This document shows positions 26,296-41,805 of a stretch of DNA of 43,378 nucleotides, piece after piece; the stretch's first letter is position 1; the number at the start of each line of letters is the position of its first letter. Under the pieces are notes generated by a model. It saw only the letters and a program-made list of their open reading frames with translations, was not told where the DNA came from and searched no databases. This stretch comes from a virus. The position numbers were made by a program, and so were the translations under genes. The DNA lies in IMG/VR virus record IMGVR_UViG_3300003321_000392, positions 1-43,378 of that record; one strand, given 5' to 3'.

Positions 26296-26372
26296 TGTAC
26301 AGTATGGACAAGTCCGGTCCAGTCTGATAAGATACTATCTGCCGGTCGGACTTCCCGACTGGTCATATCGCA
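26296..26372 (+). promoter_or_regulatory. Early-type promoter, hairpin and ATATCGCA leader before gene 26392
   Basis: A TGTACAGTAT box starts at 26296, with another TGTACA a few bases before it. The -35 TGGACA (26305-26310) is separated by 17 bp from TAAGAT (26328-26333), which is preceded by TGA as an extended -10. The leader then folds CCGGTCGG (26342-26349) with CCGACTGG (26355-26362), one G-U pair, 5-nt loop. ATATCGCA follows at 26365-26372, 20 bp before the ATG. Confidence 0.72.
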
Positions 26373-26391
26373 GATCGCAGAGGTAATCGTC

Positions 26392-27066
26392 ATGAAAGAG
26401 TTCGGACTTCAAATCGATGCCGACTATTATAACCAGTCGGACGCGATCAAAGAGACGCAAGAGCTCGTTGCGGAGTTCTGTCGCGTCAACACAATTCCTG
26501 AGCCTCTCATTCTCGAGAGCAATCGCAGCGCGCGCTGGGTCCGCTTCGGATTCTATAAAGCGTCTAATCACGCTGGACGCGGCGATAATTGGCACGGTGC
26601 GCTCTACTATAATCCGCGCAAATGTCGCAAGCCAGTTAAGACACCAGGATTTGCTTGGACGTATACCGGCTATAAGGCTGATCTAACGGCACCCGGCGTT
26701 ATTGCTCACGAGATGGGACATCACGTCTGGGAGTGCCAATGCCGATCAACTAACGGACGTCATTGTAAATCACTAGAAGCGCAGCTCGCTGCTGCGTGGC
26801 AGAACGAAACGCAAGGCGAAAAGCCGACGACCAGCTACGGCGCGACTCGCGTCGAAGAAGACTTTGCTGAGTCGTTCAAGCTATTTCTGCTGAATCCTGA
26901 TTTGCTCGATCGCGGCGCGACGCTGCGTCATTCATTCTTCGTTGACCAGCTTAAATTGCAGCCAGTCGTTCATTGGACGTTCGACGAAGTTCTGGCATTA
27001 GCGCATCCTCGATTGATCGCAGCGGCCGCTCGATGGGCCGGCTGCGACATGGAGGCAGTGCGATGA
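26392..27066 (+). CDS. HExxH zinc metallopeptidase-like protein
   Basis: ATG 26392 was chosen because it follows the promoter leader. The 224-residue product has VIAHEMGHHVWE with HEMGH at residues 106-110, and a downstream acidic EEDFAESF that could give the third zinc ligand as in gluzincins. There is no signal peptide. Base composition is clearly lower in GC than in flanking genes, with codons such as TAT and GAT common. That suggests a recently acquired early gene, possibly acting on a host regulator or defence protein. Confidence 0.7.
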   Translation: MKEFGLQIDADYYNQSDAIKETQELVAEFCRVNTIPEPLILESNRSARWVRFGFYKASNHAGRGDNWHGALYYNPRKCRKPVKTPGFAWTYTGYKADLTAPGVIAHEMGHHVWECQCRSTNGRHCKSLEAQLAAAWQNETQGEKPTTSYGATRVEEDFAESFKLFLLNPDLLDRGATLRHSFFVDQLKLQPVVHWTFDEVLALAHPRLIAAAARWAGCDMEAVR

Positions 27067-29066
27067 GAGCGCTCTCCGACGCGACCGCAGGAATGCTCAA
27101 GCCGCTCAATCTGTCCAGCAGGGACAAGATCGTCATCGACGTCGACAAGGACCTCAAGCACTTTGTCGTGCGCATCACGACGAGCGACGAAGGCGAATAC
27201 GTTCGCTCGTACCCGTCCACCGCGGCGACTCGCGCGTGGCTCGGCCGAGTACCGGAGCGAAAAGAACTGAAGGACCGACCGAACACGTGGATGCTCGCGG
27301 CGACCGACTACACGGCTGAGATCATTCGCGCCGTGTGGCCGGCGGAGCAGATCGAGTGGAAGTCGAGCGAGGCCGAGACGCTGTTCGACTATCTGCTGCT
27401 CAGCACGACGCAGCAGGACATGAACGCCGAGGCCTACGGCAAGTTCAAGGAGTCCGGCGAGTTGCCGGACTCGCCGCTCGAGTTCAGCAGCGAGCACCCG
27501 CTCGCGCCTTACCAGCGATGCGCCGGCGCGATCGCGCTGCGCAGCGAGGGATACGGCCTGTTCAAGGAGCAGGGCACCGGCAAGACGCCGGTCGCGATAT
27601 CCGTCGTGTGCACCGCGGCGTCAACGCGCGACTGGCGGCAGCCGTACCGAGTGCTGGTCGTCGCGCCGAAGAACGTTCGCCGCAACTGGGTGCGGGAGTT
27701 CGAGCGATTCGCAACGCAACCCGGCAAGGTCGAGGTCATCAAGGGCGGCAAGATCGATCGCATGGCACTGCTGATCGAGACCATCGCGCCAGAGCAGGAC
27801 TGCAAGTACTCGGTCTGCATCATGAGCTACGAGGCCATGACGCGCGACATCGAGTTCTTGACCAGCATCGAGTGGGACCTCGTGATGCTCGACGAAGGCC
27901 ACTACATCAAGTGGCCCGAGACGCAGCGAGCGAAGGCTGCGTTCAAGCTGCGCGACGCGGCGCGAAAGCGCATGGTGCTCACCGGCACGCCGGTCTGCAA
28001 CTCGCCGCTGGACCTCTACTCACTCTTCGAGTTCATGGGCGAGGGATGGTCCGGTTTCAAGCGCTGGGAGAATTTCCGACAGTTCTACGGTGTGTTCAAG
28101 GACGTCAACGACGGCACGACGCACCAGAAGCTCGTCGCGGTCCAGAACCTGCCGTTCATGAAGGAGCGGCTCGCGCGTCTCAGCTTCATCATTCGCAAGG
28201 ACGAGGCGCTGCCCGACCTACCAGACAAAGTATACGACACCGACGACGTCCAGATGACCAAGGCGCAGGCCGACGCGTACGAGCGCGTGGCGAACGACTT
28301 GCTGGTGAAGATCGAGAACGAGCTTGACTCGACGCAGAACAAGTCGATGTCGGTGAACAACATCCTGACGCAGCTCCTGCGACTCGCTCAGATCACCTGC
28401 GGCTACGTCACCTGGGACCCGGTGTTCGACTTGAACACGCTGGAGGAAGTCCGACCGAAGTCCATCGAGTGGTTCGGCGAGGACCCGAAGCTCGAGCGGC
28501 TCGTACAGATATTGAAGGGACACGGCGAGCCGGGCGACGACGACTATGCGACGCCGAAGACCGACAAGCAGAAGACGATTATCTGGTCCTGCTTCGTGCC
28601 GTGCATCAAGCGCATCAGCGAGCGACTCACCGCCGAGGGAATCGACCACGTAACGTTCTACGGCGGCACGAGCGAAGCTGATAGAATAGAAGCCGAGCGT
28701 CGCTTCAACGAGGACCAGAACTGTCGCGTGCTGATCGGCAACCCGGCAGCCGGCGGCACCGGCCTGAACCTGCTCGGCTATCCGCCGCACGCCGGCGAGA
28801 CGGCCGAGACAAACTGCGATCACGTCATCTACTACGCGCAGGACTGGTCGTACGTCAAGCGCGCGCAGAGCGAGGACCGATGCCACCGGCGCGGCACTCG
28901 ATCGAACGTGCGCGTGACCGACCTCGTCGTGCCGGACACGATCGACGAAGAGATTCGAGTCCGAGTGCTCAAGAAGAAGATGGTCGCGCTGGAGATCGCG
29001 GACATTCGCGAGATTCTGTCGGCCGTCGTTCATGGTCTGAAGGTAAAGAAGGAGAGCGATGAATGA
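27063..29066 (+). CDS. SNF2-type DEAD/DEAH helicase
   Basis: ATG 27063 overlaps the previous stop, giving 667 residues. Motif I is EQGTGKTPVAI near residue 170, motif II VMLDEGHYIKW near 275, and motif III LTGTPVCNSPLDLYSLFEFM near 307. Motif V is AAGGTGLNLLGY near 562, and motif VI appears in RAQSEDRCHRRG. The order is that of SNF2/superfamily 2 translocases found in many phage replication modules. It probably works in replication or recombination of phage DNA. Confidence 0.9.
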   Translation: MRALSDATAGMLKPLNLSSRDKIVIDVDKDLKHFVVRITTSDEGEYVRSYPSTAATRAWLGRVPERKELKDRPNTWMLAATDYTAEIIRAVWPAEQIEWKSSEAETLFDYLLLSTTQQDMNAEAYGKFKESGELPDSPLEFSSEHPLAPYQRCAGAIALRSEGYGLFKEQGTGKTPVAISVVCTAASTRDWRQPYRVLVVAPKNVRRNWVREFERFATQPGKVEVIKGGKIDRMALLIETIAPEQDCKYSVCIMSYEAMTRDIEFLTSIEWDLVMLDEGHYIKWPETQRAKAAFKLRDAARKRMVLTGTPVCNSPLDLYSLFEFMGEGWSGFKRWENFRQFYGVFKDVNDGTTHQKLVAVQNLPFMKERLARLSFIIRKDEALPDLPDKVYDTDDVQMTKAQADAYERVANDLLVKIENELDSTQNKSMSVNNILTQLLRLAQITCGYVTWDPVFDLNTLEEVRPKSIEWFGEDPKLERLVQILKGHGEPGDDDYATPKTDKQKTIIWSCFVPCIKRISERLTAEGIDHVTFYGGTSEADRIEAERRFNEDQNCRVLIGNPAAGGTGLNLLGYPPHAGETAETNCDHVIYYAQDWSYVKRAQSEDRCHRRGTRSNVRVTDLVVPDTIDEEIRVRVLKKKMVALEIADIREILSAVVHGLKVKKESDE

Positions 29067-29440
29067 TCGCCTCAGCGACTAAGACAGCTCGCGTATTCAT
29101 GCTGGCGCCGCACGACAAGAACGTGTCGCGCGCCAAGCGATACGGCGAGCTGGAGATGATATACGACAGAGACGAGTCCCGCCCGTCCATCTGGGACGAG
29201 GCGATGTACGACGAGGCGCTCGAGCGCCTCGCCGAGCTGGACTACGACCCGAATCACGACTACATCCTGATCGCCGGCACGATGGTGCCGGTCGTGACGT
29301 TCGTCGCTCGGCTCGTCGCCGAGTACGGACAGATCAAGACGCTCTGCTACGACATGGTGTCGGGAGAGTACGCCCAGAAGCTCATGGGGAATATCGCAAA
29401 TGAACCAAACCGTAAGAGAACTGTACATCGACGTTCGTGA
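29063..29440 (+). CDS. Hypothetical early protein, 125 aa
   Basis: ATG 29063 is in an ATGA overlap with the helicase. The first 100 residues look like a small alpha/beta domain (ARVFMLAPHDKNVSRAKRYGELEMIYD, then DYILIAGTMVPVVTFVARLVAEYG) resembling a nucleotide-binding half-fold. The last 15 residues overlap the next gene and are basic run-on. I do not recognise a family. Confidence 0.55.
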   Translation: MIASATKTARVFMLAPHDKNVSRAKRYGELEMIYDRDESRPSIWDEAMYDEALERLAELDYDPNHDYILIAGTMVPVVTFVARLVAEYGQIKTLCYDMVSGEYAQKLMGNIANEPNRKRTVHRRS

Positions 29441-29990
29441 CTTTCACCACAAGTTGCTGCGCGTCTTGCCGGAGATCGAGCAAGAGATCAAGTCGGGCAG
29501 CGACGAGAAGGAGATGGCCGACTTGGCGTACGCCATGCGCGAGATAGCTCGACTCTGCGACGACGCGCGCAAGCGCTGCGAGCAGAAGAAGCGACTGGCC
29601 GAGCAGCTCGCTTGCGCGCTCACCATCGCGGTGACGCAGAGCGCCGAGCCGATTCGCACCGAGTTCTGTCGCGCGTCGCCCAAGATGCGATCGATCGTCT
29701 CCGTCCCGCGCCGTTCGAAGGAGCCCGAGAAATACGCCGAGCTGATGAAGTACCTCGGCGTGCCGGAGCACCTATGGCAGGGCGGCGAGCACGCCGTCGT
29801 CAACACGCACTGGCCAGGCCTGATGGACCTGCTCGCGGCGAAGCAGGAGCGCGGCGAGCCGCTGCCGCCGGGCATCGACCCGAATAAGACGTACCCGGAG
29901 TACACGCTGGTCATCCACGGATACCAGTCGCCGGCTGGCGGCGCAGTGGAAGACGACGACGGCGTGCTGACGGAGGAGGTACCGTTCTAG
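29400..29990 (+). CDS. Hypothetical coiled-coil protein, 196 aa
   Basis: ATG 29400 lies 40 bp inside the upstream gene, with GGGGA upstream. The sequence ATATCGCA is at 29391-29398, one base before the start codon. Residues 1-80 form an amphipathic coiled coil (RVLPEIEQEIKSG and DDARKRCEQKKRLAEQL). Residues 95-196 are mixed, with LGVPEHLWQGGEHAVVNTHWPG and an acidic end EDDDGVLTEEVPF. Acidic C-termini often bind replication partners. The function is unknown. Confidence 0.55.
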   Translation: MNQTVRELYIDVRDFHHKLLRVLPEIEQEIKSGSDEKEMADLAYAMREIARLCDDARKRCEQKKRLAEQLACALTIAVTQSAEPIRTEFCRASPKMRSIVSVPRRSKEPEKYAELMKYLGVPEHLWQGGEHAVVNTHWPGLMDLLAAKQERGEPLPPGIDPNKTYPEYTLVIHGYQSPAGGAVEDDDGVLTEEVPF

Positions 29991-30002
29991 CGATTCATAC
30001 GC

Positions 30003-30032
30003 CGCGCGAGGGCTCACCGATCACCTCGCGCG
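30003..30032 (+). promoter_or_regulatory. 9-bp perfect hairpin before the SSB-like gene
   Basis: CGCGCGAGG (30003-30011) pairs perfectly with CCTCGCGCG (30024-30032) across a 12-nt loop in the 81-bp gap between genes. No U-run follows, so it is not a standard terminator. It resembles the leader hairpins of other early genes but lacks ATATCGCA behind it. It ends 39 bp before ATG 30072. Confidence 0.5.
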
Positions 30033-30071
30033 ACGTTATTCAAGATCGGTTCACTATCAGGAGTTCAGACG

Positions 30072-30914
30072 ATGGGAAAGATCATGAATCCCGCGACCGC
30101 CACGTCGCCCGGCGCACTCGCCGTGCCGGACTTCATGTCGCAGCACCAGGTGGAGGGTACCGACCTGCTCAAGCAGGCCGTCATCCCGCCGAGGCTCAAG
30201 TTCGTTCAGCCGACGAGCAAGTCGCCGTTCTGCGACCTGTTCAATCCCGGTGACCTGGTCGTCGTCCCGATGATGCAGCGCGTCGCGGAGTACGACAAGC
30301 AGGAGAAGAAGATCGCGCTGTACTTCGCGACGGTCTTCTACTGGCCGGAGTGGGTGTGCTGGAACCCGCTCGACACGCGCGGGCAGTTGAAGTCAGTTCG
30401 CGAGCGATCGCTCGACCCGAAGAGTACGGTCGCCATCAAGGCCCGCGACGAGTCACGGCGCAACAGCGAGGTGTGCCCAGAGGTGCCCGAGAAGGACGGC
30501 AAGAAGCTGTACTTGCGGTACCTCGAGCATCTCAACTTCATGATCGTCCCGTTCAACGCCGGCGGCGTCGAGACGCAGTTCGCTGGTCTGCCAATCTGCT
30601 TGTCGTTCGCTAGCGGCGAGTGGATGAAGGGCAGCAATCTGGCCGGGCTTATCACCGTTCGTCGTGCGCCGATCTACGGCTGCCAGTTCCAAGGCGTCAT
30701 GCGTCGCCGACAGAACTCGAAGGGCACGTGGTTCGGGATGGACGTCGATAACCCGGCCGACGAGAGCGTCGGGCCGTGGGTCAGCAAGGAATCGTTCGAG
30801 GCCTTGCAGACGGTGCACCGCGAGTTCAAGAAGGCACACGAAGAGAAGACGCTGCAAGTTGACTACGAGGACGAGCCGGAGGCGCCGAAGCCCGGCGACT
30901 CGAAGGAGTTCTAG
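30072..30914 (+). CDS. Candidate single-stranded DNA-binding protein
   Basis: GGAG precedes ATG 30072. The 280-residue protein has PPRLKFVQPTSKSPF and GDLVVVPMMQRVAEYDKQEKKI, rich in beta strands and aromatics. It ends in an acidic tail with YEDEPEAPKPGDSKEF, the arrangement of phage SSB-like proteins such as T7 gp2.5. Between the helicase and the primase this is a sensible job, but no motif is diagnostic. A recombination mediator is the alternative. Confidence 0.55.
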   Translation: MGKIMNPATATSPGALAVPDFMSQHQVEGTDLLKQAVIPPRLKFVQPTSKSPFCDLFNPGDLVVVPMMQRVAEYDKQEKKIALYFATVFYWPEWVCWNPLDTRGQLKSVRERSLDPKSTVAIKARDESRRNSEVCPEVPEKDGKKLYLRYLEHLNFMIVPFNAGGVETQFAGLPICLSFASGEWMKGSNLAGLITVRRAPIYGCQFQGVMRRRQNSKGTWFGMDVDNPADESVGPWVSKESFEALQTVHREFKKAHEEKTLQVDYEDEPEAPKPGDSKEF

Positions 30915-30968
30915 GTACCGCGGACGGAGAAGAGGCTTTTCACACATTCACGTTATGAGGACACTGCA

Positions 30969-31172
30969 ATGTTGAAGGTCAGCATCAAAGTACTGCGCGG
31001 GTTCAACGAGCTCGGGACTCTCACCGGCGAGCTCGACGAGACGAAGCTGCCGATGCACAAGCCAGACGAGGCGTCCGACCAGCCATGCATCGACGCGCTC
31101 AAGGGCCACCTGGTGCGCATGGAGAACGCGGCCAACGCCGGGCCGCTGCGTCTGCATCTGAGCGTCGAATAA
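30969..31172 (+). CDS. Hypothetical early protein, 67 aa
   Basis: TGAGGA precedes ATG 30969. The small acidic protein has a beta-helix-beta look (MLKVSIKVLRGFNELGTL, then PCIDALKGHLVRMENA and LRLHLSVE). The gene stands alone between two intergenic regions. No family is recognised. Confidence 0.45.
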   Translation: MLKVSIKVLRGFNELGTLTGELDETKLPMHKPDEASDQPCIDALKGHLVRMENAANAGPLRLHLSVE

Positions 31173-31239
31173 GCGCACGAGCGCTCCGAGAGTTCACGCC
31201 CGGTCGGTGAAGCTGGGCCATTTTCTGCTGCATATCGCA
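31172..31239 (+). promoter_or_regulatory. Structured leader with ATATCGCA before the primase-helicase
   Basis: In the 105-bp gap, AGCGC (31172-31176) pairs with GCGCT (31181-31185), and TTCAC (31193-31197) pairs with GTGAA (31207-31211). ATATCGCA follows at 31232-31239, 38 bp before ATG 31278. No strong promoter is visible nearby; TAGATT at about 31245 is only a weak -10. Confidence 0.5.
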
Positions 31240-31277
31240 TAGTGTAGATTTCTCTCGAGACAGAACGACGACGCGAC

Positions 31278-34115
31278 ATGGCTGTGCCCGCGGTATCGGT
31301 GCTCGCTGAGTTAGATCGCTACCAGATAGCGTACGACTGGGCGGGCGACGACGAAGTGAAGGTAAAGTGCCCGTTCCACGACGACAGCGTCGCGTCGTGC
31401 AACGTCAGCGTGTCGAAGCGGCTCTTCATGTGCCACGCCGGCGGGTGCGGCAAGAAGGGCGACATCATCACGCTGCTCGCGAAGGTGATCGGTCACGCAC
31501 GGGCGGTCGTCCTCGAGGAGCTCGGGCAGCGCTATGACCTAGACGACGTCAAGATCGTCGAGCCGGACGTAGTCGATCGCTGGCACGCGGACATCTGGAG
31601 CGCCGGGCCGCTCCTGTCCGAGCTGTACAAGCGGGCCGTCATCGACGACGACATCAAGAAATACAAACTCGGCGTCGATCACGGTCGCGTCACCATCCCG
31701 ATCGACAACGAGCGACACGACTGGGTCAACGTCCGTAAGTACCTTCCGGGCGCGCCGGGCAACGAGAAAATGAAGAACCAGCGCGGCCGCGGGTCGGCGC
31801 GGTGGTTCCCGATCGAGCAGCTCAGATTTCCGGCCATCGTGCTGTGCGGCGGCGAGCTGAAGTCGATCGTGGCCGCTAGGCAGCTCAATCCACACGGCGT
31901 GGGCGCGATGTGGGCGACGCAGGGCGAGAAGCTGCTGCCGCCGAAGCTGCTCGCGCAGCTCAAGGGCAAATCGGTGGCGTTCTGCCTGGACGTCGACGCG
32001 GCGGGCCGACAGGCCACCGACGAGAACGCTCGCGCGCTGAAGTCGATCGCCAGCGAGATACTCGACGTCAGGCTACCGCTGGACCTCGAGAAGTTCCCGA
32101 AGGGAGACATCAACGACTTCGTCGCCAGCGGCGGCGACATGTGGGAGCTGTACCAGCAAGCCGAGCCATGGCAGGACTCACGCGCCGACAAGCTGGCCGA
32201 GACCGAGCCGGAAGTGATTCACCTGTCGGCGTCGGCCAACGCGCGATACGCCGGCAAGCGCATCGCCGTCACGGCGATCACCAGCGCGATGGACACCGCG
32301 CCGTATAGCGTGCCCAAGGACGTCGTCGTGCACTGTGATCGGTCGCAGACGTTCTGCGCGGCGTGCCCGGTCTTCCCGACCGCCGACGGGAAGTTCGAAG
32401 TCTCGCCGGAGTCGCCCGGCGTACTGGAGTGCATCCAGGCGACGCGGCGCGGCGTACACGAATCGCTGATCGGCGCGCTCGGCATACCGCGAGTCTGTCG
32501 AGTATGCGACTTCGAGGTCGAGACGTATCACAACTGCGAGGACGTCCGACTGACGCCGCAGATCGACATCACGGACCGAACGGCGGACCAGCGAGTGCAG
32601 CCGGCCATCTGCGTCGGCGAGGGCCTCGAGCTGAACGAGCCGTACAAGATGGTCGGTCGGATGTGGCCGCACCCGCAGACGCAGCAGGCCACGCTGCTCA
32701 TCTCGAAGTACGAGCCGACGCGAGACGCGCTGTCCGAGTACGAGCCGACCACCGAGCAGCTCGCCACGCTGGACGTATTCAAGCCGGACGAATGGACTCA
32801 AGATGGAATAGAGAGACGCTTGAACGCTCTGTATTCCGACCTCGAGCTGAACGTCACGCGAATCTACCAGCGCCGCGACCTGCACATGGCGATCGACTTG
32901 GCGTATCACTCACCGCTGCTCATCACGTTCGAGGGCGACATCGTCAAGGGATGGACCGAGGTGCTCGTCGTCGGCGACTCGGCGCAGGGTAAGTCGGAGG
33001 CGGCCCTGCGCATGATGCAGCACTATGGCCTAGGGGAGCGCATCGAATGCAAGAATGCGTCTGTAGCTGGACTCCTCGGCGGGTTGAAGCAATCAGGGTC
33101 GAGGTGGATGGTGGAATGGGGCTTCATACCCAAGCACGACAGGCGCTTAGTGATACTGGAGGAGATCAAGGGGACGAGCACGGAGGTGATCGGAAAGTTG
33201 ACAGATATGCGGAGTTCAGGCGTAGCCGAGCTGAGCAAGATCGAGAAGATGCGAACGCACGCCAGGACTCGCGCGGTGTGGATAAGCAACCCGCGAGCCG
33301 AGGGTCGATCGCTGGCGTCCTATGGGTACGGCATCGAGGCGGCGAGGGAGTTGATGGGAAGCCTCGAGGACCTACGCCGATTCGACCTGGTGTTGCTGCT
33401 CGCCGCGAGCGAAGTCGACGCAGCCGAGATCAATCGACTGCACGCCGCGCGGAACGGTCACCACTGCGTACACGCGCCGGACCTGTGCCGCGCCCTGGTG
33501 CTCTGGGCGTGGACCCGAGCACCGGAGCAGTGCTGCTTCGATAAGCCAGTCGCCAAGCTGTGTCTCAGCGAGGCTACGCGACTGAGCGACCTGTTCAGCG
33601 ACAGCATCCCGGTGGTCGATCGAGGCAGCGCTCGGTTCAAGATCGCTCGACTGGCGGCGTCGCTTGCCTGCCGCACGTTCAGCGCGAGCGAGGACCGAAA
33701 GTCGATCGTCGTGCGAGAGTGCCACGTCGAGTACGCCAGCAAGCTGCTCGAGCGAATATACAGCAAGCCGGCGGCAGCGTACCTCGAGTACACCAAGGCG
33801 CAGCGAGCCAGCGAGGAGCTCATCGACCCGGACTCGATCACTCGCACCATATCGCTGCTGCCGTTCCCCTACGAATTCGCGGAAGCCGTGCTGAAGGTCG
33901 ATCGAGTCGACATGCAGGACCTCATCGACTGGTGCGGCGCAGAGCGAATGGAGGCCGCGCGCATCATGTCGCTGCTCGTGCGCAAGCAAGCCGTCACGCG
34001 AGACGGCGGCGGCTATCGCAAGACCCCGGCGTTCGTCAAGTTCCTGCGGGACGTCATCGAGACGAAGGGCTTCGAGGGTCGTCCCACTCACATTCCTATA
34101 GAGGGAGAGTTCTGA
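31278..34115 (+). CDS. Primase-helicase: CHC2/TOPRIM primase fused to an MCM-like AAA+ helicase
   Basis: The 945-residue protein has three parts. Residues 1-60 are a CHC2-like zinc finger (Cys31, His34, Cys52, Cys57). Residues about 185-260 are a TOPRIM domain with CGGELK and the LDVDAAG acidic pair. The middle (about 350-480) is cysteine-rich with an OB-like ELNEPYKMVGRM block, as in MCM N-domains. The AAA+ core has Walker A GDSAQGKS (Lys572), Walker B RLVILEEI (628-629), sensor-1 WISNPR (Asn671) and an SRF-like arginine finger in LRRFDLVL (Arg701). A winged-helix-like end follows. It should unwind and prime phage DNA. The start has little Shine-Dalgarno sequence but fits the leader. Confidence 0.8.
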   Translation: MAVPAVSVLAELDRYQIAYDWAGDDEVKVKCPFHDDSVASCNVSVSKRLFMCHAGGCGKKGDIITLLAKVIGHARAVVLEELGQRYDLDDVKIVEPDVVDRWHADIWSAGPLLSELYKRAVIDDDIKKYKLGVDHGRVTIPIDNERHDWVNVRKYLPGAPGNEKMKNQRGRGSARWFPIEQLRFPAIVLCGGELKSIVAARQLNPHGVGAMWATQGEKLLPPKLLAQLKGKSVAFCLDVDAAGRQATDENARALKSIASEILDVRLPLDLEKFPKGDINDFVASGGDMWELYQQAEPWQDSRADKLAETEPEVIHLSASANARYAGKRIAVTAITSAMDTAPYSVPKDVVVHCDRSQTFCAACPVFPTADGKFEVSPESPGVLECIQATRRGVHESLIGALGIPRVCRVCDFEVETYHNCEDVRLTPQIDITDRTADQRVQPAICVGEGLELNEPYKMVGRMWPHPQTQQATLLISKYEPTRDALSEYEPTTEQLATLDVFKPDEWTQDGIERRLNALYSDLELNVTRIYQRRDLHMAIDLAYHSPLLITFEGDIVKGWTEVLVVGDSAQGKSEAALRMMQHYGLGERIECKNASVAGLLGGLKQSGSRWMVEWGFIPKHDRRLVILEEIKGTSTEVIGKLTDMRSSGVAELSKIEKMRTHARTRAVWISNPRAEGRSLASYGYGIEAARELMGSLEDLRRFDLVLLLAASEVDAAEINRLHAARNGHHCVHAPDLCRALVLWAWTRAPEQCCFDKPVAKLCLSEATRLSDLFSDSIPVVDRGSARFKIARLAASLACRTFSASEDRKSIVVRECHVEYASKLLERIYSKPAAAYLEYTKAQRASEELIDPDSITRTISLLPFPYEFAEAVLKVDRVDMQDLIDWCGAERMEAARIMSLLVRKQAVTRDGGGYRKTPAFVKFLRDVIETKGFEGRPTHIPIEGEF

Positions 34116-34117
34116 TT

Positions 34118-34699
34118 ATGACCACCATATCGCAAGCACAGCAGATGGTTCACCAGTTCCATGAGCACTGCAAGCTACTCACCAAGGCACAGCTCACGCG
34201 CGAGAACAGTGGCGGCATGAACAGCATGCTCTACGAGACGCACGCGGCGTTGCATCGCCAGTCGATGCAGCTCCAGGAGTGGGTCGGACACGATCGAGGT
34301 CTTCGCGCGCACCTCCTGACCGAGGAGCTGGCGGAGGTCGTTGAAGCGCTGATGAAGGCCGACGAGAAGCAACTGCTCGATGGTCTCGCCGATCTACTGT
34401 ACGTCGTGCTCGGCACAGCCGCGATCTACGATCTCCCGCTCGAGGCCGCGTTCGTCGAGGTGCACCGATCGAACATGACCAAGGAGAAGCAGCCGGACGA
34501 CCCGCACGCGCAGCGGCTGCGCAGCAAGGGTCCGAACTATCGACCGCCGAACATCGAGCGCGTACTGACGAACTATCGTAGCTGGCAGCGGGAGCACGTC
34601 TTCGCGCCGGACGATCTATACTCGCCGTACTGCGAGTGCGGCAGGACGCAGAACGACTCCATTCACATCACACGTAGCATGGAAGACTCTGGACAATGA
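34118..34699 (+). CDS. MazG-like all-alpha NTP pyrophosphohydrolase
   Basis: GGGAGAG lies before ATG 34118, three bases after the primase stop. The 193-residue protein has LLTEELAEVVEALMKADEKQLLDGLADLLYVVLG near residues 67-102, the EExxE...ExxD-like (here DGLAD) helices of MazG, HisE and dUTPase/dCTPase enzymes. VHRSNMTK follows, as in that superfamily. The C-terminus has a short Cys/His group (CECGRTQNDSIHITRS). It would hydrolyse a dNTP, which suits emptying a canonical dCTP or dUTP pool for the genes that follow. ATATCGCA occurs within its first codons (34127-34134). Confidence 0.7.
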   Translation: MTTISQAQQMVHQFHEHCKLLTKAQLTRENSGGMNSMLYETHAALHRQSMQLQEWVGHDRGLRAHLLTEELAEVVEALMKADEKQLLDGLADLLYVVLGTAAIYDLPLEAAFVEVHRSNMTKEKQPDDPHAQRLRSKGPNYRPPNIERVLTNYRSWQREHVFAPDDLYSPYCECGRTQNDSIHITRSMEDSGQ

Positions 34700-35952: not shown

Positions 35953-36868
35953 CACGCGGCAGATCATCGGATGGTCGGGCTGCCTCGAGGATCCGCGGCG
36001 TAACTTCATCGTCAACGAGCGCCGCGCGGTCGACCCGAGCTACGCCTGCGCCGAGCTGCTGTGGTACCTAAGTCGATCGGACGACATCACCATGCTCAAG
36101 GCGTACGCCAACCAGTACGATCGCTTCGCCGAGCCAGGCACGACGCAGGCGTTCGGCGCGTACGGCAAGCGCATCGCGGAGAACGCCGGCATCGATCAAC
36201 TGTGGTACGCCGTGAACAAGCTGATAAATAAGCCGGACACTCGCCAGTGCGTCATCACGCTGTGGAGGCCGAGCGACTTACTGGAGGAAGACCGCCGCGA
36301 CTTGCCGTGCACCGTCTGCTTGCAGTTCATCGTCGAGAACAAGCGGCTTCACATGTGCACGTACATGAGGTCGAACGACGCGTGGCTCGGGTTCCCGTAC
36401 GACGTCTTCTGCTTCACCTGCTTGCAGATGCTCGTCGCCGGCACGATCGGTATCCAGCTCGGGACATACACGCACTTCGTCGGCAACATGCACCTATACG
36501 AGAAGAACGCCGCCGCGACGCGCGAGGCTTCGCTCGAGCGAAGCCTCGCGACGCCGGCGCAAGAATGGATGCCTTATGGCAGCACGCTGTACCACGCCAA
36601 GGACGCAGTGACGCTCGAGCACCTCGTGCGCAACGGATACGGCGACGAGCAGTTCTGCGAAGAGTACTACGCCAGCAAGCTCGGCGGCGAAATGAGCCTA
36701 CTCTCGGACGTCGTTCGCTGCTGTAACGCGAGACACGACTGGGTCGACTGGGACCAGAGAATCGTTTCACCCTCCTTACGCAAAGGACTCGATAATGTTG
36801 ATAATCGAAGGCGCCGATCTAGTCGGCAAGACGACGCTGGCGAAGGCGCTGACAAAGCAGCTCAATGA
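35858..36868 (+). CDS. Thymidylate-synthase-like enzyme, predicted dCMP-specific (hydroxy)methylase
   Basis: AAGGA lies about eight bases before ATG 35858. The TS fold is shown by SCAELLWYLS-like YACAELLWYLSRSDD, the nucleophile motif DLPCTVCLQF with Cys151, MRSNDAWLGFPYD (170-182), and FVGNMHLYEKN. Thymidylate synthases have PCH and Asn in LPFN; here they are PCT and Asp182. T4 dCMP hydroxymethylase has the same Asp swap and the same CT and MRSND residues, so dCMP is the likely substrate, giving 5-hydroxymethyl- or 5-methyl-dCMP. The last 35 residues overlap the kinase gene and are low-complexity run-on. A 30-bp palindrome lies inside the gene. Confidence 0.78.
   Translation: MTKRYEEIDSMWLSLLADLRNSGKKQSSRNGDTRQIIGWSGCLEDPRRNFIVNERRAVDPSYACAELLWYLSRSDDITMLKAYANQYDRFAEPGTTQAFGAYGKRIAENAGIDQLWYAVNKLINKPDTRQCVITLWRPSDLLEEDRRDLPCTVCLQFIVENKRLHMCTYMRSNDAWLGFPYDVFCFTCLQMLVAGTIGIQLGTYTHFVGNMHLYEKNAAATREASLERSLATPAQEWMPYGSTLYHAKDAVTLEHLVRNGYGDEQFCEEYYASKLGGEMSLLSDVVRCCNARHDWVDWDQRIVSPSLRKGLDNVDNRRRRSSRQDDAGEGADKAAQ
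36521..36550 (+). repeat. Perfect 30-bp palindrome inside the TS-like gene
   Basis: The arm CGCGAGGCTTCGCTC (36521-36535) is followed immediately by its exact reverse complement (36536-36550). It encodes about ten residues rich in Arg, Ser and Leu in the C-terminal third of the enzyme, in frame. It can form a 30-nt snap-back in single strands or a cruciform in duplex DNA. Confidence 0.85.
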
Positions 36869-37358
36869 ACTCGGGTGGCCGCACGTCTATCAGCATCTCA
36901 GCAGGCTGCCGACATGCTGGCGCGAGAAGACGGTCGGCAACTACTCGAGGCTGATGAACGCGTACGCGGTGCGCGATCGCTTTCACATGAGCGAGCCGCT
37001 CTACGCGGCGGCTCGCGGCGAGGAGCCGATGCTGTCGCCCGGACAGTATCGCTCCGTGGACGAAGAGGTGAAGTCGCACGGCGGCTATATCATCGTCGTC
37101 ACGGCCGACCCGGAGCTCATCGAGCGACGCTACGCGGAGCACGCGGCTCGCGAGATGTACTCGCTGGACAAAGTGCTCGAGGTCAACGAGGGATTCGTCG
37201 CCATGGCCAATGGTGGATGGGACAACTACGTGAATCCGCTCATGGACCTTCACGTTCACTGCACGCAGGCCGAGCAGTGGCCGGCGCTGCCGCAGTTGCG
37301 TGCCTACACCGCGCGCCTCGCCGCTAACTTCCCGTACCCAGGAGCTCGAGCAGCATGA
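36795..37358 (+). CDS. Deoxynucleoside monophosphate kinase (thymidylate-kinase-like)
   Basis: AAAGGA precedes ATG 36795. The 187-residue P-loop kinase has IIEGADLVGKTTLAKAL (Walker A at 6-14) and VRDRFHMSEPLY, the DR motif that binds the monophosphate. TADPELIERRYAEHAAREMY resembles a lid region with arginines. The substrate is probably the dNMP made by the preceding TS-like enzyme. It overlaps that gene by 74 bp. Confidence 0.78.
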   Translation: MLIIEGADLVGKTTLAKALTKQLNELGWPHVYQHLSRLPTCWREKTVGNYSRLMNAYAVRDRFHMSEPLYAAARGEEPMLSPGQYRSVDEEVKSHGGYIIVVTADPELIERRYAEHAAREMYSLDKVLEVNEGFVAMANGGWDNYVNPLMDLHVHCTQAEQWPALPQLRAYTARLAANFPYPGARAA

Positions 37359-37705
37359 AGAGACCGACAATGGAGCGAATCTGGACCGCCGTGACCCGCG
37401 CGGTCCGAGAGCACAAGCTGAACCCGCGATGGACGGGTATCGGTCACATGCTCGACGTGCTCGACGACGAGGAGGTCCTGACGTGGATTTGCGTCACGAT
37501 GCACCAGCGAGACATCACTCGATCGTGCTTCATCGCGGCGTTCTTCGAGTACATCGAGATGCCATCCATTGCTGGGCTCGCGCGCGACGAATACGCCAAA
37601 CACGACACTAGGAGAATCAAAGATGCTCGCCGTGATAGTCGCCGAAGCGCTCGTAATCGTCGGTCTCGTCGCGTCGCTCGTCGTCGCGCGACGGATGTGG
37701 ACTGA
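37355..37705 (+). CDS. Hypothetical protein, 116 aa
   Basis: ATG 37355 overlaps the kinase stop. The first 80 residues are helical and have WTGIGHMLDVLDDEEVLTWICVTM and RSCFIAAFFEYIEM. The remaining residues, from about 85, are Arg-rich and lie over the start of the next gene, so part of the C-terminus may have no function. No family is recognised. Confidence 0.45.
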   Translation: MKRPTMERIWTAVTRAVREHKLNPRWTGIGHMLDVLDDEEVLTWICVTMHQRDITRSCFIAAFFEYIEMPSIAGLARDEYAKHDTRRIKDARRDSRRSARNRRSRRVARRRATDVD

Positions 37706-37916
37706 GGAACATACCCGACTCGTCGAGGCCGTGTACTGGGCGCTGCGATCGCAGGGCATCAGCGGGTACGAGGACCATCACGCCATCCAGGACGTGAGGA
37801 ACAACTTGGGATGCGGCTACCTAGCCGCCGAGTCCATCGTGCTCGAGATCATGCTATCGGAGCAGGATCTCCCGCGTCCCGTCATCACCAAGACAGACAT
37901 AGGACCGCTATGCTAG
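37623..37916 (+). CDS. N-terminally anchored membrane protein, 97 aa
   Basis: AGGAGA lies just upstream of ATG 37623, which was preferred over ATG 37569 for this reason. Residues 1-21 (LAVIVAEALVIVGLVASLVVARR) form a membrane anchor. The rest is a small soluble domain (RLVEAVYWALRSQGISGYEDH). The end overlaps the polymerase start by 7 bp. The function is unknown. Confidence 0.5.
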   Translation: MLAVIVAEALVIVGLVASLVVARRMWTEEHTRLVEAVYWALRSQGISGYEDHHAIQDVRNNLGCGYLAAESIVLEIMLSEQDLPRPVITKTDIGPLC

Positions 37917-39979
37917 AGCTGTGCAACGGCGGGCTCCTGGTGCAGAGCACCGACGAACTCCCGCGACTCGATTGGTCTCTGATCTTCAAGGACTACGAGA
38001 CTACGTCCTTCGACTGGTACAAGGACGCGCTGAACGTCTGGCGCGACTGCTGGGCGCTTGGCGTCGCGGTGTGCGACGCGCGCAGCAAGGCCTACTATAT
38101 CCCGCTGCGTCACCACGCGAAAATCGACCCATACCACAACCTGGACGTCGACGCGGTGATCGCGTGGCTCGCCGACGGCATGTCGCGATGCCGGCGATGG
38201 GTGAACCACAACGTCAAGTACGACGCCCACGTCGAATACAACGACTTAGGCGTCGACTCGCCGAAGTGCGAGCTGGTCTGTACGGTCACACACGCCAAGA
38301 TCATCGACAGCGATCGACAGTTCCGCGGCGGATACGGACTCGACGCGCTGTCGCTGGCGTGGCTCGGCGAAGACATCTCGGCGTTCGAGAAGGAGATCAA
38401 GCGCTATCTCGGGCGCGACGGACAGGACTACGGATTCATCCCGATCTTGCCGATGGCGACGTACGCCTGCCAAGACGTCCTGACGAACCGTCGCTTGTAT
38501 AAGTACATCGAGCAGCAGCGACCGAAGGCGTGCGTCGGAGTGGCCGACGTCGAGACGAAGCTGACGCGGCGACTCGTCGAGATGGAGCGCGCCGGGCTGT
38601 GCGTCAACCCGACCGAGCTGCAACTGCGCGAGGTGATGGTGATCTCGCGCATGCTCGAATGCGAGACGGAGCTGCACGAGCTGATCGGACGCACGATCAA
38701 CCCGACGAGCACCGACGACGTGTACGACGTGCTCGTCAATCAGTATGGCCTGCCGGTGCTGCACTGGACCGAGGAGGACGAGGACGGCAACCCAGCCGGC
38801 AATCCGAGCTTCGACAAAGAGGGTATGAAGAAGTACCTCGCGTACCCGCTCGCGCCTCGGCGCGTGGTCGAGCTGATCGGCGAGTTCAGGAAGCTCAGCA
38901 CGCATCGCAGCCTGTTCTTGGAGAAGTACCAGAGCCTCGCCACCGCCAGCGAGTCGGCGCACGGCACCGAGTGGTTCCTCCACGGCAGCTACAACCAGTG
39001 CCTGCGCACCGGGCGCATGGGGTGTCGCGAGCCCAACGCGCAGCAGCTCGACAAGAAGACGCAGGAGCTGATTCACCCGAGGCGCGGCAACGCGATCATG
39101 CGAGCAGACCAGTCGCAGATCGAGTTCCGCATCATCGCGCACTACATCAACGACTCGGACGTCATTCGCGCGTACAACGAGAACCCCGACACTGACTTCC
39201 ACGACTGGGTGGCGCAGGTCGCCGGCATGGCGCGCAGTCCGGCGAAGACGATGAACTTCATGATGGGCTACGGCGGCGGCAAGAAGAAGGCCGTGCGCAC
39301 GATGGCGGCAAACGCCGACGTGATCGGCAACTTGCTGGCGAAGGTCGAGGCGCTCGTCGAGGCCGGCACGATTCGTCGCGAGGACGCCAAGAAGGTCTTC
39401 GACGAGATGTGCAAGCAGCGCGGCGAACAGGTGTACGATGAGTATCACCGCACGCTGCCGACGCTCAAGTCGACGAGCCGGCGCGCCGCCGCGACGTGCG
39501 CCGAGCGAGGCTACGTCTTCAACGGCGCCGGGCGCCGGAGACACCTGCCGCAGCAACACGCGCACGTGGCGTTCAACTCACTCTGCCAGAGCTTCGCGGC
39601 CGACATCCAGAAGGAGCGGACCGTCGCGCTGTGCGACGCCATCGACGGCACGCCGATCTTCATGATCGCTAACGTGCACGACGACACCGTACTAGAGGGA
39701 CCGATCAAAGTGATGCGCGATCGCCGGACGCAGGTCGCCGTGGCGTGGATACTCGAGCACACCGCGTACGAGCTGCGAGTGCCGCTGCGAGTGTCGCTCG
39801 GCGTGAGCGAGCTGAACTGGCGCGAGGCCGGCAAGTCGGTGAAGGACGGCGGGACCGCTGGACCGATCATGTACACCGACGCCGAGCGCGAGTGGCTGCT
39901 GTCGACGCCGGCTGTCAGATTGTTCGACTGGCTCCGCGCGAGTGTTGACGATTTGGCTGTCAATATGACACGGCATTAA
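37910..39979 (+). CDS. DNA polymerase A family with 3'-5' exonuclease
   Basis: ATG 37910 was chosen because it overlaps the upstream stop and precedes the exonuclease motif closely. The 689-residue protein has exonuclease motifs DYETTSF (Asp28, Glu30), HNVKYDAH and YACQDVLTNR. Polymerase motif A is MRADQSQIEFRI (Asp400), motif B RSPAKTMNFMMGYGGG, and motif C NVHDDTV (Asp591-Asp592, where most A-family enzymes have VHDE). There is no 5'-3' nuclease domain. It is the phage replicative polymerase and would incorporate whatever nucleotide the upstream cassette makes. Confidence 0.93.
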   Translation: MLELCNGGLLVQSTDELPRLDWSLIFKDYETTSFDWYKDALNVWRDCWALGVAVCDARSKAYYIPLRHHAKIDPYHNLDVDAVIAWLADGMSRCRRWVNHNVKYDAHVEYNDLGVDSPKCELVCTVTHAKIIDSDRQFRGGYGLDALSLAWLGEDISAFEKEIKRYLGRDGQDYGFIPILPMATYACQDVLTNRRLYKYIEQQRPKACVGVADVETKLTRRLVEMERAGLCVNPTELQLREVMVISRMLECETELHELIGRTINPTSTDDVYDVLVNQYGLPVLHWTEEDEDGNPAGNPSFDKEGMKKYLAYPLAPRRVVELIGEFRKLSTHRSLFLEKYQSLATASESAHGTEWFLHGSYNQCLRTGRMGCREPNAQQLDKKTQELIHPRRGNAIMRADQSQIEFRIIAHYINDSDVIRAYNENPDTDFHDWVAQVAGMARSPAKTMNFMMGYGGGKKKAVRTMAANADVIGNLLAKVEALVEAGTIRREDAKKVFDEMCKQRGEQVYDEYHRTLPTLKSTSRRAAATCAERGYVFNGAGRRRHLPQQHAHVAFNSLCQSFAADIQKERTVALCDAIDGTPIFMIANVHDDTVLEGPIKVMRDRRTQVAVAWILEHTAYELRVPLRVSLGVSELNWREAGKSVKDGGTAGPIMYTDAEREWLLSTPAVRLFDWLRASVDDLAVNMTRH

Positions 39980-40251
39980 AACACGTGATTTGGAGTGCCA
40001 AAATGGCAAAATGCAATAGGAGGCCCTCAGCACGGCCCGGCCGACTCTGGTATTGGAATACCAACATGCCCGATAAAATGCTCTAAAGCCTCTCCTATTG
40101 ATCGAATTTTCGGCTCTCCGGCAGTCCGATCGATCGCATCGACGCTCAACACGAAATTCGAGAAAATTCTCGCGCGAGTGGCAATAATCGCAGCGCGCGC
40201 TAGAATTACTGATATCAAACACGCTGGCACGACGATTGCAATTAGTAACAC
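39980..40251 (+). other. AT-rich intergenic region with several DNA dyads
   Basis: No convincing gene occupies this stretch. It holds TGCCA-AAA-TGGCA (39996-40008), TGGTATT-GG-AATACCA (40048-40063), CGAGAA-AA-TTCTCG (40159-40172) and a run of CGATCGATCG near 40131. Composition is lower in GC than the coding surroundings. A GTG-initiated frame from 39995 to 40258 exists but lacks a ribosome-binding site and uses foreign-looking codons. Operators, an origin of replication or a remnant gene are all possible. Confidence 0.5.
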
Positions 40252-40331
40252 GCAGTGATCAACACTGCCATATCGCAAGAAAGAACAGAGAAGAGGCTCG
40301 GCGCGGCACGGTGCTGCGCCGATATATCGCA
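40252..40331 (+). promoter_or_regulatory. Two successive hairpin + ATATCGCA leaders before gene 40350
   Basis: GCAGTG (40252-40257) pairs with CACTGC (40263-40268), followed by ATATCGCA at 40270-40277. A second hairpin pairs GGCGCGGCA (40300-40308) with TGCTGCGCC (40312-40320), one G-U pair, 3-nt loop. It is followed by ATATCGCA at 40324-40331. The ribosome-binding site GGAGAG and ATG 40350 come next. Confidence 0.65.
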
Positions 40332-40349
40332 ACCGACCGGAGAGCACAG

Positions 40350-40508
40350 ATGACGATTCGACTGGTACCTGATTTGGCCGAGCAGCTCGGCGTGAGCGAG
40401 AACGAACTCCGCGATCGCGCGGAGGACATCGCCGTCCTCATCGAGGACGACGACGCGGTGATATGGAACGAGGAGCGATTCGAGTACTTGACCGGAGTCT
40501 CGCTCTAA
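40350..40508 (+). CDS. Small acidic early protein, 52 aa
   Basis: GGAGAG lies eight bases before ATG 40350, behind a double ATATCGCA leader. The product has LAEQLGVSENELRDRAEDIAVLIEDDD, which could be a short helical DNA- or protein-binding unit. Its stop overlaps the next start as TAATG. The function is unknown. Confidence 0.5.
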   Translation: MTIRLVPDLAEQLGVSENELRDRAEDIAVLIEDDDAVIWNEERFEYLTGVSL

Positions 40509-40711
40509 TGTACTCGATCTTCTGGAACCTGCTCGGCGAACCAATCAGCAGTGACAACTACGCCGGCGGCAACATGACGCGATCGGCGGCGCTCATGCAA
40601 GCCTGGGCGCTGGCTCGGCGCAATCCCGACCGAGTGTACTCGATTCGAGACGAGGACGTCGACTGGCTGAGACACACGATCTCGGCTCGAGACGGACAAA
40701 AGAATTTCTAG
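40508..40711 (+). CDS. Small early protein, 67 aa
   Basis: ATG 40508 overlaps the previous stop (TAATG). The product is helical, with MYSIFWNLLGEPISS, then MTRSAALMQAWALARRNP and an acidic DEDVDWLRHTI. There is no recognised domain. The gene ends 9 bp before the -35 box of the next promoter. Confidence 0.5.
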   Translation: MYSIFWNLLGEPISSDNYAGGNMTRSAALMQAWALARRNPDRVYSIRDEDVDWLRHTISARDGQKNF

Positions 40712-40720
40712 TCGGACCAG

Positions 40721-40807
40721 TTTACAGGCCCGACGCAATCTGATATAATTAAGACAGAACACAGCCGCCAACGGTCGGCGCGGCTTTCAAGTCCGACCAA
40801 TATCGCA
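40721..40807 (+). promoter_or_regulatory. Early-type promoter, H-type pseudoknot and ATATCGCA leader
   Basis: TTTACA (40721-40726), a 17-bp spacer and TATAAT (40744-40749) preceded by TGA form a near-consensus sigma70 promoter. In the leader, AGCCGC (40763-40768) pairs with GCGGCT (40780-40785). GGTCGG (40773-40778), inside that loop, pairs with CCGACC (40793-40798). Loops are 4, 1 and 7 nt, ideal for an H-type pseudoknot. ATATCGCA follows at 40800-40807 and gene 40838 starts 30 bp later. Confidence 0.75.
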
Positions 40808-40837
40808 GCCACAAACTGCACACGAAAGGGTCCGATC

Positions 40838-41362
40838 ATGGCGAAGATTCTCAGCAACGCGACGGCCGAAAAGCCCAGCAGCAAACCCGGCAGCAAGGCC
40901 CCGGAGGCCGCGAAACCGAAGAAGGAGAAAGTCGTTCGGCAGTTCCACCCGGCGCTGGCCGCACAGCCGGCCGTCAAGGACGGCAAGCCGGTGACCAACA
41001 AGAAGGGTCAGCCGGTCATCCGCCCGACCAAGAAGCTCGACGCGGTGCCGACAGACTTCGACCCGAAGTTGCACAAGCCGCTCGGCAAGGCGGACTTCGC
41101 CGACGAGTCGCTCTTCTACGAGCTGAAGGCCGTGCAGCTCGACAAGCAGGCCGCCGCGCTCCGCAGCAAGGCCGCCGACATCAAGGCACTCGGCTCCGTG
41201 AAGGACCGCCAGGCCGCGAAGAAGCTGCTGTCGCTCCAGAAGCGCATGAAGGAGCTGGTCGAGTCGCTGAAGGCCAGCGGCGTCGACACCAGCGTCGTCG
41301 ACGCCATGGTGAAGAAGCAGCTCGAGGCCGCGCAGTCGGCGCCGGCCGCTCAGTCGGCCTAG
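40838..41362 (+). CDS. Lys/Ala-rich early protein, 174 aa
   Basis: GAAAGGG precedes ATG 40838. Residues 1-75 are basic and low in complexity (EKPSSKPGSKAPEAAKPKKEK), like a histone H1-type tail. Residues 80-160 form a coiled coil (ESLFYELKAVQLDKQAAALRS broken by short turns, and KKLLSLQKRMKELVESLKASG). The tail is Ala/Gln-rich. With a strong promoter, abundant DNA- or RNA-binding is plausible, but no family is recognised. Confidence 0.55.
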   Translation: MAKILSNATAEKPSSKPGSKAPEAAKPKKEKVVRQFHPALAAQPAVKDGKPVTNKKGQPVIRPTKKLDAVPTDFDPKLHKPLGKADFADESLFYELKAVQLDKQAAALRSKAADIKALGSVKDRQAAKKLLSLQKRMKELVESLKASGVDTSVVDAMVKKQLEAAQSAPAAQSA

Positions 41363-41370
41363 CAGACAGT

Positions 41371-41453
41371 CGGGTCTCGTCGACCCGGCGAACTCGCCGC
41401 CGACCGCGCTTGAGCGGCGGCGAGCTGCTGGTTCGATCAACCCTTATATCGCA
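41371..41453 (+). promoter_or_regulatory. Double-hairpin leader with ATATCGCA before gene 41468
   Basis: CGGGTC (41371-41376) pairs with GACCCG (41382-41387). CTCGCCGCC (41393-41401) pairs with GGCGGCGAG (41416-41424). ATATCGCA lies at 41446-41453, followed by AGAAGGAA and ATG 41468. No promoter is visible in the gap, so this RNA would be read through from upstream, and the hairpins could act as processing or attenuation sites. Confidence 0.6.
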
Positions 41454-41467
41454 GAAGGAACCACGCA

Positions 41468-41737
41468 ATGAACACCGTACGAATGATCAGGGTCTGGATT
41501 TGGGACGCCCGCGACTTCAACATCGAGCACTCGTTCGACGTTGACGTCAGTCCGGACATCAACGTCAGCATGGCGATCGCGCAAGCCGAGCGCATCGCGA
41601 CCGTCCTCGCCGAGAAGCATCCCGATCGCAAGGTCCACGTGGACTTGCAGCTCGGCTGGCGCCACGACGCGGTGATCGACGCTCGCCAGATCACGCGCGA
41701 CGAGATCCAGGCCGTTCTGAACACCTGTACAGTATAG
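41468..41737 (+). CDS. Small early protein, 89 aa
   Basis: GAAGGAA precedes ATG 41468. The product shows a beta-alpha-beta pattern (NTVRMIRVWIWDARDFN, SMAIAQAERIATVLAEKHP, KVHVDLQLGWRHDAVI), a compact ferredoxin-like or dsRBD-like size. No motif allows a function. It ends inside the operator-like TGTACA of the next promoter. Confidence 0.5.
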   Translation: MNTVRMIRVWIWDARDFNIEHSFDVDVSPDINVSMAIAQAERIATVLAEKHPDRKVHVDLQLGWRHDAVIDARQITRDEIQAVLNTCTV

Positions 41738-41805
41738 ACGTCTTAGGACAGTTCTGATATAATGTCTCTCAGCCGGACGGTATCGGACCGCCGGCTCATA
41801 TCGCA
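41727..41805 (+). promoter_or_regulatory. Early-type promoter, hairpin and ATATCGCA leader before gene 41840
   Basis: TGTACAGTAT starts at 41727. A weak -35 TAGACG (41735-41740), 17-bp spacer and TATAAT (41758-41763) with TGA before it form the promoter. The leader folds AGCCGG-a-CGGT (41771-41781) with ACCG-CCGGCT (41787-41796), leaving one bulged A. ATATCGCA follows at 41798-41805. The layout copies that at 26296-26372. Confidence 0.72.

Follow-up and report, generated by a model that had tools for sequence, protein, structure and literature searches.

Why does one sequence of eight bases recur in front of the early genes of an uncultured virus, and is it read as DNA or as RNA? The question concerns IMG/VR record IMGVR_UViG_3300003321_000392, a stretch of 43,378 bases that was analyzed whole and is referred to here as the window, and the octamer ATATCGCA, which a preliminary description had presented as a phage-wide post-transcriptional signal set behind hairpins or pseudoknots. 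Every predicted gene of the window lies on the + strand, and matches to PHROGs are found along it for terminase, major head protein, helicase, primase, methyltransferase, thymidylate synthase, and DNA polymerase. Going by this gene content (primase-helicase, polymerase, and small open reading frames [ORFs]), the genes that carry the octamer in their leaders are presumably early genes. At five leader copies the octamer follows an inverted repeat at a constant distance of one base, and we tentatively read the two together as a module of the mRNA 5' leader.

Abundance and placement of the octamer

The ten coordinates given for ATATCGCA in the preliminary description are all correct and are as follows.

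20505..20512, + strand: copy within a coding region
26365..26372, + strand: copy 1 nt 3' of a hairpin, 19 nt before the ATG at 26392
29391..29398, + strand: copy abutting the ATG at 29400, membership doubtful
31232..31239, + strand: copy in the leader of the primase-helicase gene (31278)
34127..34134, + strand: copy within the first codons of a gene, no hairpin, membership doubtful
40270..40277, + strand: first copy of a tandem pair upstream of ORF 40350
40324..40331, + strand: copy 1 nt 3' of a hairpin, 18 nt before the ATG at 40350
40800..40807, + strand: copy 30 nt before the ATG at 40838
41446..41453, + strand: copy 14 nt before the ATG at 41468, adjoining hairpin weak, 4 bp (41430-41442)
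41798..41805, + strand: copy 1 nt 3' of a hairpin, 34 nt before the GTG at 41840

The 10 copies on the + strand, with none on the - strand, exceed what is obtained from 100 dinucleotide shuffles counted on both strands (mean 1.18, largest 5), and the excess noted in the preliminary description is borne out. Seven of the ten lie in non-coding DNA (binomial p 9e-8), which according to our hand-made gene table makes up 2,197 of the 43,378 bases (5%). ATATCGCA is the commonest non-coding 8-mer of the window (7 copies, the runner-up having 4), and any 8-mer reaching at least 7 copies was seen in 6 of 2,000 shuffled non-coding sets. Since one-mismatch forms show no enrichment (39 sites with the exact copies counted in, versus 30.6 expected, a value of 39 being reached by 6 of 100 shuffles), the signal is the exact octamer. 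An open-literature search did not find this exact octamer in print. Its seven leader copies are confined to the right 17 kb of the window and none occurs at the late -10-type starts, so that the term "phage-wide" was too broad.

A hairpin ends one base upstream of the octamer

Hairpins were evaluated with a strict measure (a single hairpin of at most 28 bases), adopted after a permissive one (up to 60 bases, any loop) had failed, giving no signal at the octamer copies. By the strict measure, the mean hairpin energy at the seven leader copies is -10.1 kcal/mol, compared with -1.7 kcal/mol at random positions, and a hairpin of -7.3 to -19.9 kcal/mol lies exactly 1 base 5' of the octamer in five of the seven (26365, 40270, 40324, 40800, and 41798). 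The structures concerned, together with two that depart from this spacing, are listed below.

26341..26363, + strand: hairpin, 9 bp, -14.9 kcal/mol, starting 8 nt past the -10 box, where the transcript is expected to begin
31198..31218, + strand: terminator-like hairpin, ending 13 nt upstream of the octamer at 31232 and breaking the 1-nt rule
40252..40268, + strand: hairpin, 6 bp, -7.3 kcal/mol
40298..40322, + strand: hairpin, 11 bp, -19.9 kcal/mol
40763..40798, + strand: alternative H-type pseudoknot (GCCGC/GCGGC plus GGTCGG/CCGACC); taken by itself, its second stem (40773-40798) forms the hairpin 1 nt 5' of the octamer
41393..41424, + strand: strong hairpin between genes 40838 and 41468, 21 nt upstream of the octamer at 41446
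41771..41796, + strand: hairpin, 10 bp with one bulge, -16.3 kcal/mol, starting 8 nt after the -10 box

The spacing was examined by moving the octamer sites randomly inside their own leaders and choosing the best linker at each draw, with hairpin thresholds of -7 and -5. Five sites sharing one linker length were obtained in none of 20,000 permutations at -7 and in 0.065% of draws at -5. The five stems are unrelated in sequence, yet every one of their 30 closing pairs is standard, and each position shows 2-4 pair types; when the arms are exchanged between the five sites (44 derangements), 12.5 of the 30 pairs are kept on average and never more than 19. As the stem sequences differ while their pairing is kept, this analysis points to the RNA level rather than to DNA, and the link between fixed sequence and RNA structure put forward in the preliminary description is supported. 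Furthermore, the distance from octamer to start codon varies (14, 18, 19, 30, 34, and 38 nt), whereas that to the hairpin is constant in the five copies; the octamer therefore belongs to the hairpin and not to the ribosome-binding site.

Not all details of the earlier picture stand. A hairpin or pseudoknot had been assigned to each leader copy, which is right for the five above but not for 31232 or for 41446, where the adjoining hairpin of 4 bp is separated from the octamer by a linker of 3 bases. At 40800 the sequence permits the pseudoknot, but the minimum free energy structure is a different fold that involves the start region (the folding program has no pseudoknot model). The copies at 29391 and 34127 are indeed located at gene starts, as had been stated, but like the one at 20505 they show no convincing hairpin by the strict measure, and these three copies are probably background.

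Predicted promoters upstream of the hairpin-octamer units

A scan for sigma-70-like promoters on the + strand between 25 and 43 kb gave four sites, the best-scoring ones of the early region, each of them upstream of a hairpin-octamer unit.

26305..26333, + strand: sigma-70-like promoter TGGACA-17-TAAGAT, TG before the -10 box
40178..40206, + strand: weak sigma-70-like promoter GTGGCA-17-TAGAAT
40721..40749, + strand: sigma-70-like promoter TTTACA-17-TATAAT (11 of 12 matches), TG before the -10 box
41735..41763, + strand: sigma-70-like promoter TAGACG-17-TATAAT, TG before the -10 box

Relative to the predicted -10 box, the hairpin starts after 8 nt at 26365 and 41798, after 24 nt at 40800, and after 46 nt at 40270.

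A second promoter class is found at genes of the left arm, where TATAAT (mostly GAGTATAAT) occurs without a -35 box (window positions 2023, 8481, 12457, 17514, and 24461). TATAAT lies 7-9 nt before the start codon in 5 of 10 cases, versus 13% of random positions, and the mRNAs of these genes may therefore be leaderless. The same TATAAT-type arrangement of starts, with GAGTACAAT, is present in the relative G001.

Relatives carry other leader devices

Relatives of the polymerase were retrieved from IMG/VR at about 41-55% identity, the best being L009 (54%; the same record as G001), and relatives of the terminase at up to 69% identity; a distant named relative is record MW202657. For the primase, capsid, and SprT-like proteins, no confirmed relatives were found in viral_contigs. 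The polymerase loci of the relatives hold 0-3 copies of ATATCGCA on either strand. A scan of viral_contigs for CTGATATAAT followed by 25-55 bases and ATATCGCA returned 36 stretches, which are AT-rich (GC 0.28-0.57) and have at most 3 copies per strand per locus; on these grounds they were judged to be chance occurrences and rejected as carriers of the motif. Leaders of genes 26392, 31278, and 30072 have nothing in common with those of relatives among the 3, 5, and 5 leaders listed, respectively. A k-mer search of leaders in nine records, based on greedy ORF calling, failed to recover the window's own motif and is therefore unreliable.

Gene 40838 has 55 homologs among the scanned loci (56 rows including the window). 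A type II hammerhead is detected by descriptor in 10 of these 56 leaders and a promoter with at least 9 of 12 matches in 20. Over all loci, the descriptor finds 62 type II hammerheads on the + strand and none on the - strand; they fall in 24 of 87 loci entries, a set that includes overlapping and nearly duplicate ones. The Rfam cut-off is passed in L091 (7 matches), L083 (1), and L039 (2), whereas the elements of L009 (35.1 bits versus 37, E 1.4e-5) and L011 (34.5 and 29.3 bits) score below it. The hammerhead-like element of L009 (8841-8906) precedes gene 8932, a homolog of window gene 40838, in the position taken in the window by promoter, hairpin, and octamer. Trains of hammerheads before consecutive small genes are seen in the post-polymerase region of L009, L010, L011, L034, L039, L048, L066, L078, L091, L094, and others. 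Such trains are not new, since hammerheads clustered between prophage genes are already known (PMC3088659).

Pseudoknots also recur in this family of leaders. H-type pseudoknots with a TTTCAA linker occur at L033 15051, L036 14731, and L009 8447 and resemble that at 40763-40798 of the window; those of L033 and L036 precede homologs of gene 40838. As a family, pseudoknots with this linker show no overall enrichment (25 on the + strand versus 24 on the - strand) and were set aside, the four leaders in which they look good (window 40785, L009 8447, L033, and L036) being so by eye only. With a free linker, H-type pseudoknots are present in 6 of 53 distinct leaders of the 40838 family versus a mean of 0.65 in 20 shuffles, a count from which 3 of the 56 leaders were dropped as duplicate or short, which leaves out the window's own pseudoknot (loop of 4), and in which the L011 match overlaps its hammerhead.

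Motifs at gene starts were observed as well. In G001, ATACTGGAG, which includes a Shine-Dalgarno core, occurs 7 times before gene starts and not at all on the other strand.

G001 8163, 8470, 9818, 19369, 49763, 50476, and 53394: ATACTGGAG start-associated motif, before gene starts

Long conserved ribosome-binding stretches of a comparable kind, such as ATAGGAGATAGT, stand before many starts in L034, L037, L039, L066, L078, and L083 and are similar to the Start Associated Sequences discussed below. In L069, between 12285 and 14953, repeated stretches resembling a tRNA T-arm (GCGGGTTCGACTCCCGC...GGGGCTT) are found in leaders before AAAGGATAG; ARAGORN detects no tRNA in them.

Comparison with known leader elements

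The nearest likeness is to the Start Associated Sequences (SAS) and Extended Start Associated Sequences (ESAS) of Cluster K mycobacteriophages and Cluster EF Microbacterium phages, whose function is given as unknown (PMC3203893, PMC7302621). As described there, these are short asymmetric motifs in one orientation, found in the leaders of non-structural genes where the intergenic gaps are sizeable, many with an upstream inverted-repeat element; the octamer likewise has a single orientation, with seven copies in non-coding leaders. Unlike SAS, which in these accounts span 13 bp, contain an AGGAG Shine-Dalgarno core, and lie 3-7 bp from the start codon, the octamer has 8 bp, lies 14-38 nt away, and holds no such core and no GGAG. 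Unlike ESAS, whose 17-bp arms are conserved and whose authors doubted RNA hairpins, the arms here are free in sequence while pairing is kept. The SAS of Cluster K and EF phages are thus the nearest known kind, alike in layout, and the octamer stands outside them by its position, Shine-Dalgarno content, and arms.

We know of no 5'-terminal stem-loop stabilizer in which an invariant octamer follows the stem. The window may share with these stabilizers, exemplified by the ompA, papA, and aprE leaders (PMC3997798), a hairpin located at the message 5' end or close to it, which here falls at the predicted transcript start in two of the four promoter-linked copies. Type II hammerheads (Rfam RF02276; PMC3088659) are similar as repeated RNA elements in the leaders of consecutive small phage genes but have a CGAAA / CUGANGA core and loop-closed stems I and III, whereas the window has no such core, second conserved strand, or Rfam match. 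HK022 put RNA is, like the units described here, a promoter-proximal structured RNA of early phage transcripts, but it is an RNA of about 70 nt with two long stem-loops and shared sequence (PMC9378689), instead of one hairpin and octamer per unit. Phage T4 offers further examples of post-transcriptional control through short leader sites (RegB and RegA) or a pseudoknot (gene 32); the RegB and RegA sites are unstructured and located at the Shine-Dalgarno sequence or start codon, and the gene 32 pseudoknot controls a single gene (PMC3014915).

A proposed bipartite module of the 5' leader and its alternatives

The reading that we put first, with a confidence slightly short of an even chance, is a 5'-leader mRNA module in which a hairpin of free sequence protects the end and the single-stranded octamer AUAUCGCA is read by a trans-acting partner. 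In such a module, the hairpin would be followed by one base and then by unpaired AUAUCGCA, and at promoter-linked copies it would form at the very beginning of the nascent RNA or close to it, where it may protect the 5' end against pyrophosphohydrolase and 5'-dependent ribonucleases. The octamer, with its constant spacing from the helix, would serve as recognition site for an RNA-binding partner acting in trans, most likely a phage protein, that could tune the stability or translation of the early messages jointly. We favor this module because the combination of free stem, fixed linker, and fixed octamer suits an RNA-binding partner, and because 5'-terminal hairpins impede 5'-end conversion by RppH and 5'-dependent decay and stabilize mRNA in Escherichia coli and B. 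subtilis (PMC3997798). That the leaders are transcribed and their 5' ends protected, and that a partner exists and is of this identity, is what we infer from this arrangement. At a more general level, hairpin and octamer probably protect or regulate early messages as a tag, and the relatives would, judging from their sequences, use other leader devices, including self-cutting ribozymes. The three roles named in the preliminary description (processing site, regulator-binding site, and translation enhancer) are not separable by sequence.

Several results weigh against this module. The promoter scan returns no more sites than shuffled sequence (4 versus 3.0), so the promoter argument is one of position and not of number, and the hairpin falls at the predicted transcript start in only two of the four promoter-linked copies. 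Among 62 promoter leaders from the window and its relatives, folding is no better than in shuffles (mean z -0.14, p 0.38), and 5' hairpins are therefore not a habit of the whole group. Two of the seven leader copies (31232 and 41446) have no adjacent hairpin at 1 nt, and the fold z-scores of six leaders are modest but for one (-3.73), the rest ranging from -1.72 to +0.96. No candidate RNA-binding protein was identified. Finally, ATATCGCA is not enriched on the gene strand in 12 polymerase records and 11 further records or genomes, and since no sampled relative shows enrichment, comparative proof is lacking. The preliminary description had counted absence of the motif from the same genes of related phages as evidence against a signal; the absence is real, but as these relatives are distant and some have other leader elements, the octamer is better regarded as lineage-specific than as meaningless. 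The strength of the claim is limited by its basis in a single genome and five strictly fitting copies.

Although unlikely, a passive leader deserves the most attention among the alternatives. Here, as in the phage T7 gene 10 leader, the hairpin would stabilize the 5' end and the octamer would merely keep the region open or aid the host ribosome, with no dedicated regulator. The location of promoter-linked hairpins near the predicted 5' end and the Shine-Dalgarno-like stretch downstream in most leaders agree with this, but openness alone needs no eight invariant bases. Moreover, the one-mismatch octamers, besides not being enriched, are never found 1 nt after a hairpin of -7 kcal/mol or better, and no run of at least 7 pairs was found between the octamer and E. 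coli 16S rRNA.

We consider it rather improbable that the octamer acts at the DNA level, as an operator or stoperator of 8 bp, asymmetric and pointing in the direction of transcription, that lies just downstream of promoters and at which a phage repressor stops RNA polymerase. Its single orientation, restriction to leaders, and proximity to promoters recall the L5 stoperators (named in PMC3203893). However, five inverted repeats of unrelated sequence that all end one base upstream would not be explained by a DNA site, and the octamer is short for a specific repressor in a bacterial genome, 132 copies being found in one 3.8-Mb metagenome-assembled genome (G021), which is not known to be that of the host. 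L5-type stoperators are 13-bp DNA sites bound by the phage repressor, as against 8 bp here.

There is, in our estimation, only a small chance that a nuclease recognizes hairpin plus AUAUCGCA and trims the leaders. Structure adjoining a fixed single-stranded sequence would suit such a site, and precedents exist in T4 RegB, which cuts a fixed sequence in early leaders, and in the mycobacterial VapC target AUA(U/A)-hairpin-G. Against this, copies at predicted transcript starts leave little to trim, the GGAG core of RegB sites is absent from the octamer, and no candidate nuclease was found.

It is very unlikely that the units are put-like RNAs that cause antitermination by RNA polymerase from early promoters: hairpins are promoter-proximal in several early units, but each unit has one variable hairpin and 8 fixed bases in place of the two stem-loops of put, and the window matches no Rfam family at the gathering threshold and no relevant one at E up to 10. 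Least credible of all is a self-cleaving ribozyme, degenerate or of an unknown kind, despite the sub-threshold hammerhead in the orthologous L009 leader and the strand bias of hammerheads in the relatives, as the window has none by descriptor or by Rfam (gathering threshold and relaxed E) and its conserved bases are all 3' of the hairpin, with none on the 5' side. Replication iterons were also thought unlikely, the copies being dispersed over 15 kb.

Other features of the window

A protein with a lipid desaturase domain (Pfam PF10520, E 1.4e-13), an unusual phage cargo, is encoded at 3278-3745. The intergenic region 2740-2876 is heavily structured, with a 12-bp inverted repeat (GTGACCGGCGCC / GGCGCCGGTCAC), and has no relevant Rfam match at E up to 5. 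At 43193-43378, the start of a pentapeptide-repeat protein with near-exact DNA repeats can be read from the letters, the gene being cut by the end of the window.

Implications for phage leaders

Phages have been known since 2011 to carry repeated leader motifs of unknown function, such as SAS and ESAS, for which there is no mechanism. The motif described here is tied to an RNA hairpin of free sequence at a fixed spacing, which points to RNA. It is possible, although doubtful, that hairpin-N-AUAUCGCA represents an undescribed class of phage regulatory RNA, namely a bipartite 5'-leader tag that would be read by a dedicated phage RNA-binding protein, would coordinate early mRNAs, and takes, ahead of one orthologous gene, the place occupied in the nearest polymerase relative by a type II hammerhead-like element. 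If this is true, related phages would exchange unrelated devices (ribozyme, pseudoknot, start-associated motif, and hairpin tag) in the same leader, each giving shape to the same 5' end of the mRNA. Orthologous leaders, some of them hammerhead-like, suggest on comparison that selection may act on the 5'-end structure of the mRNA itself, irrespective of the device that forms it.

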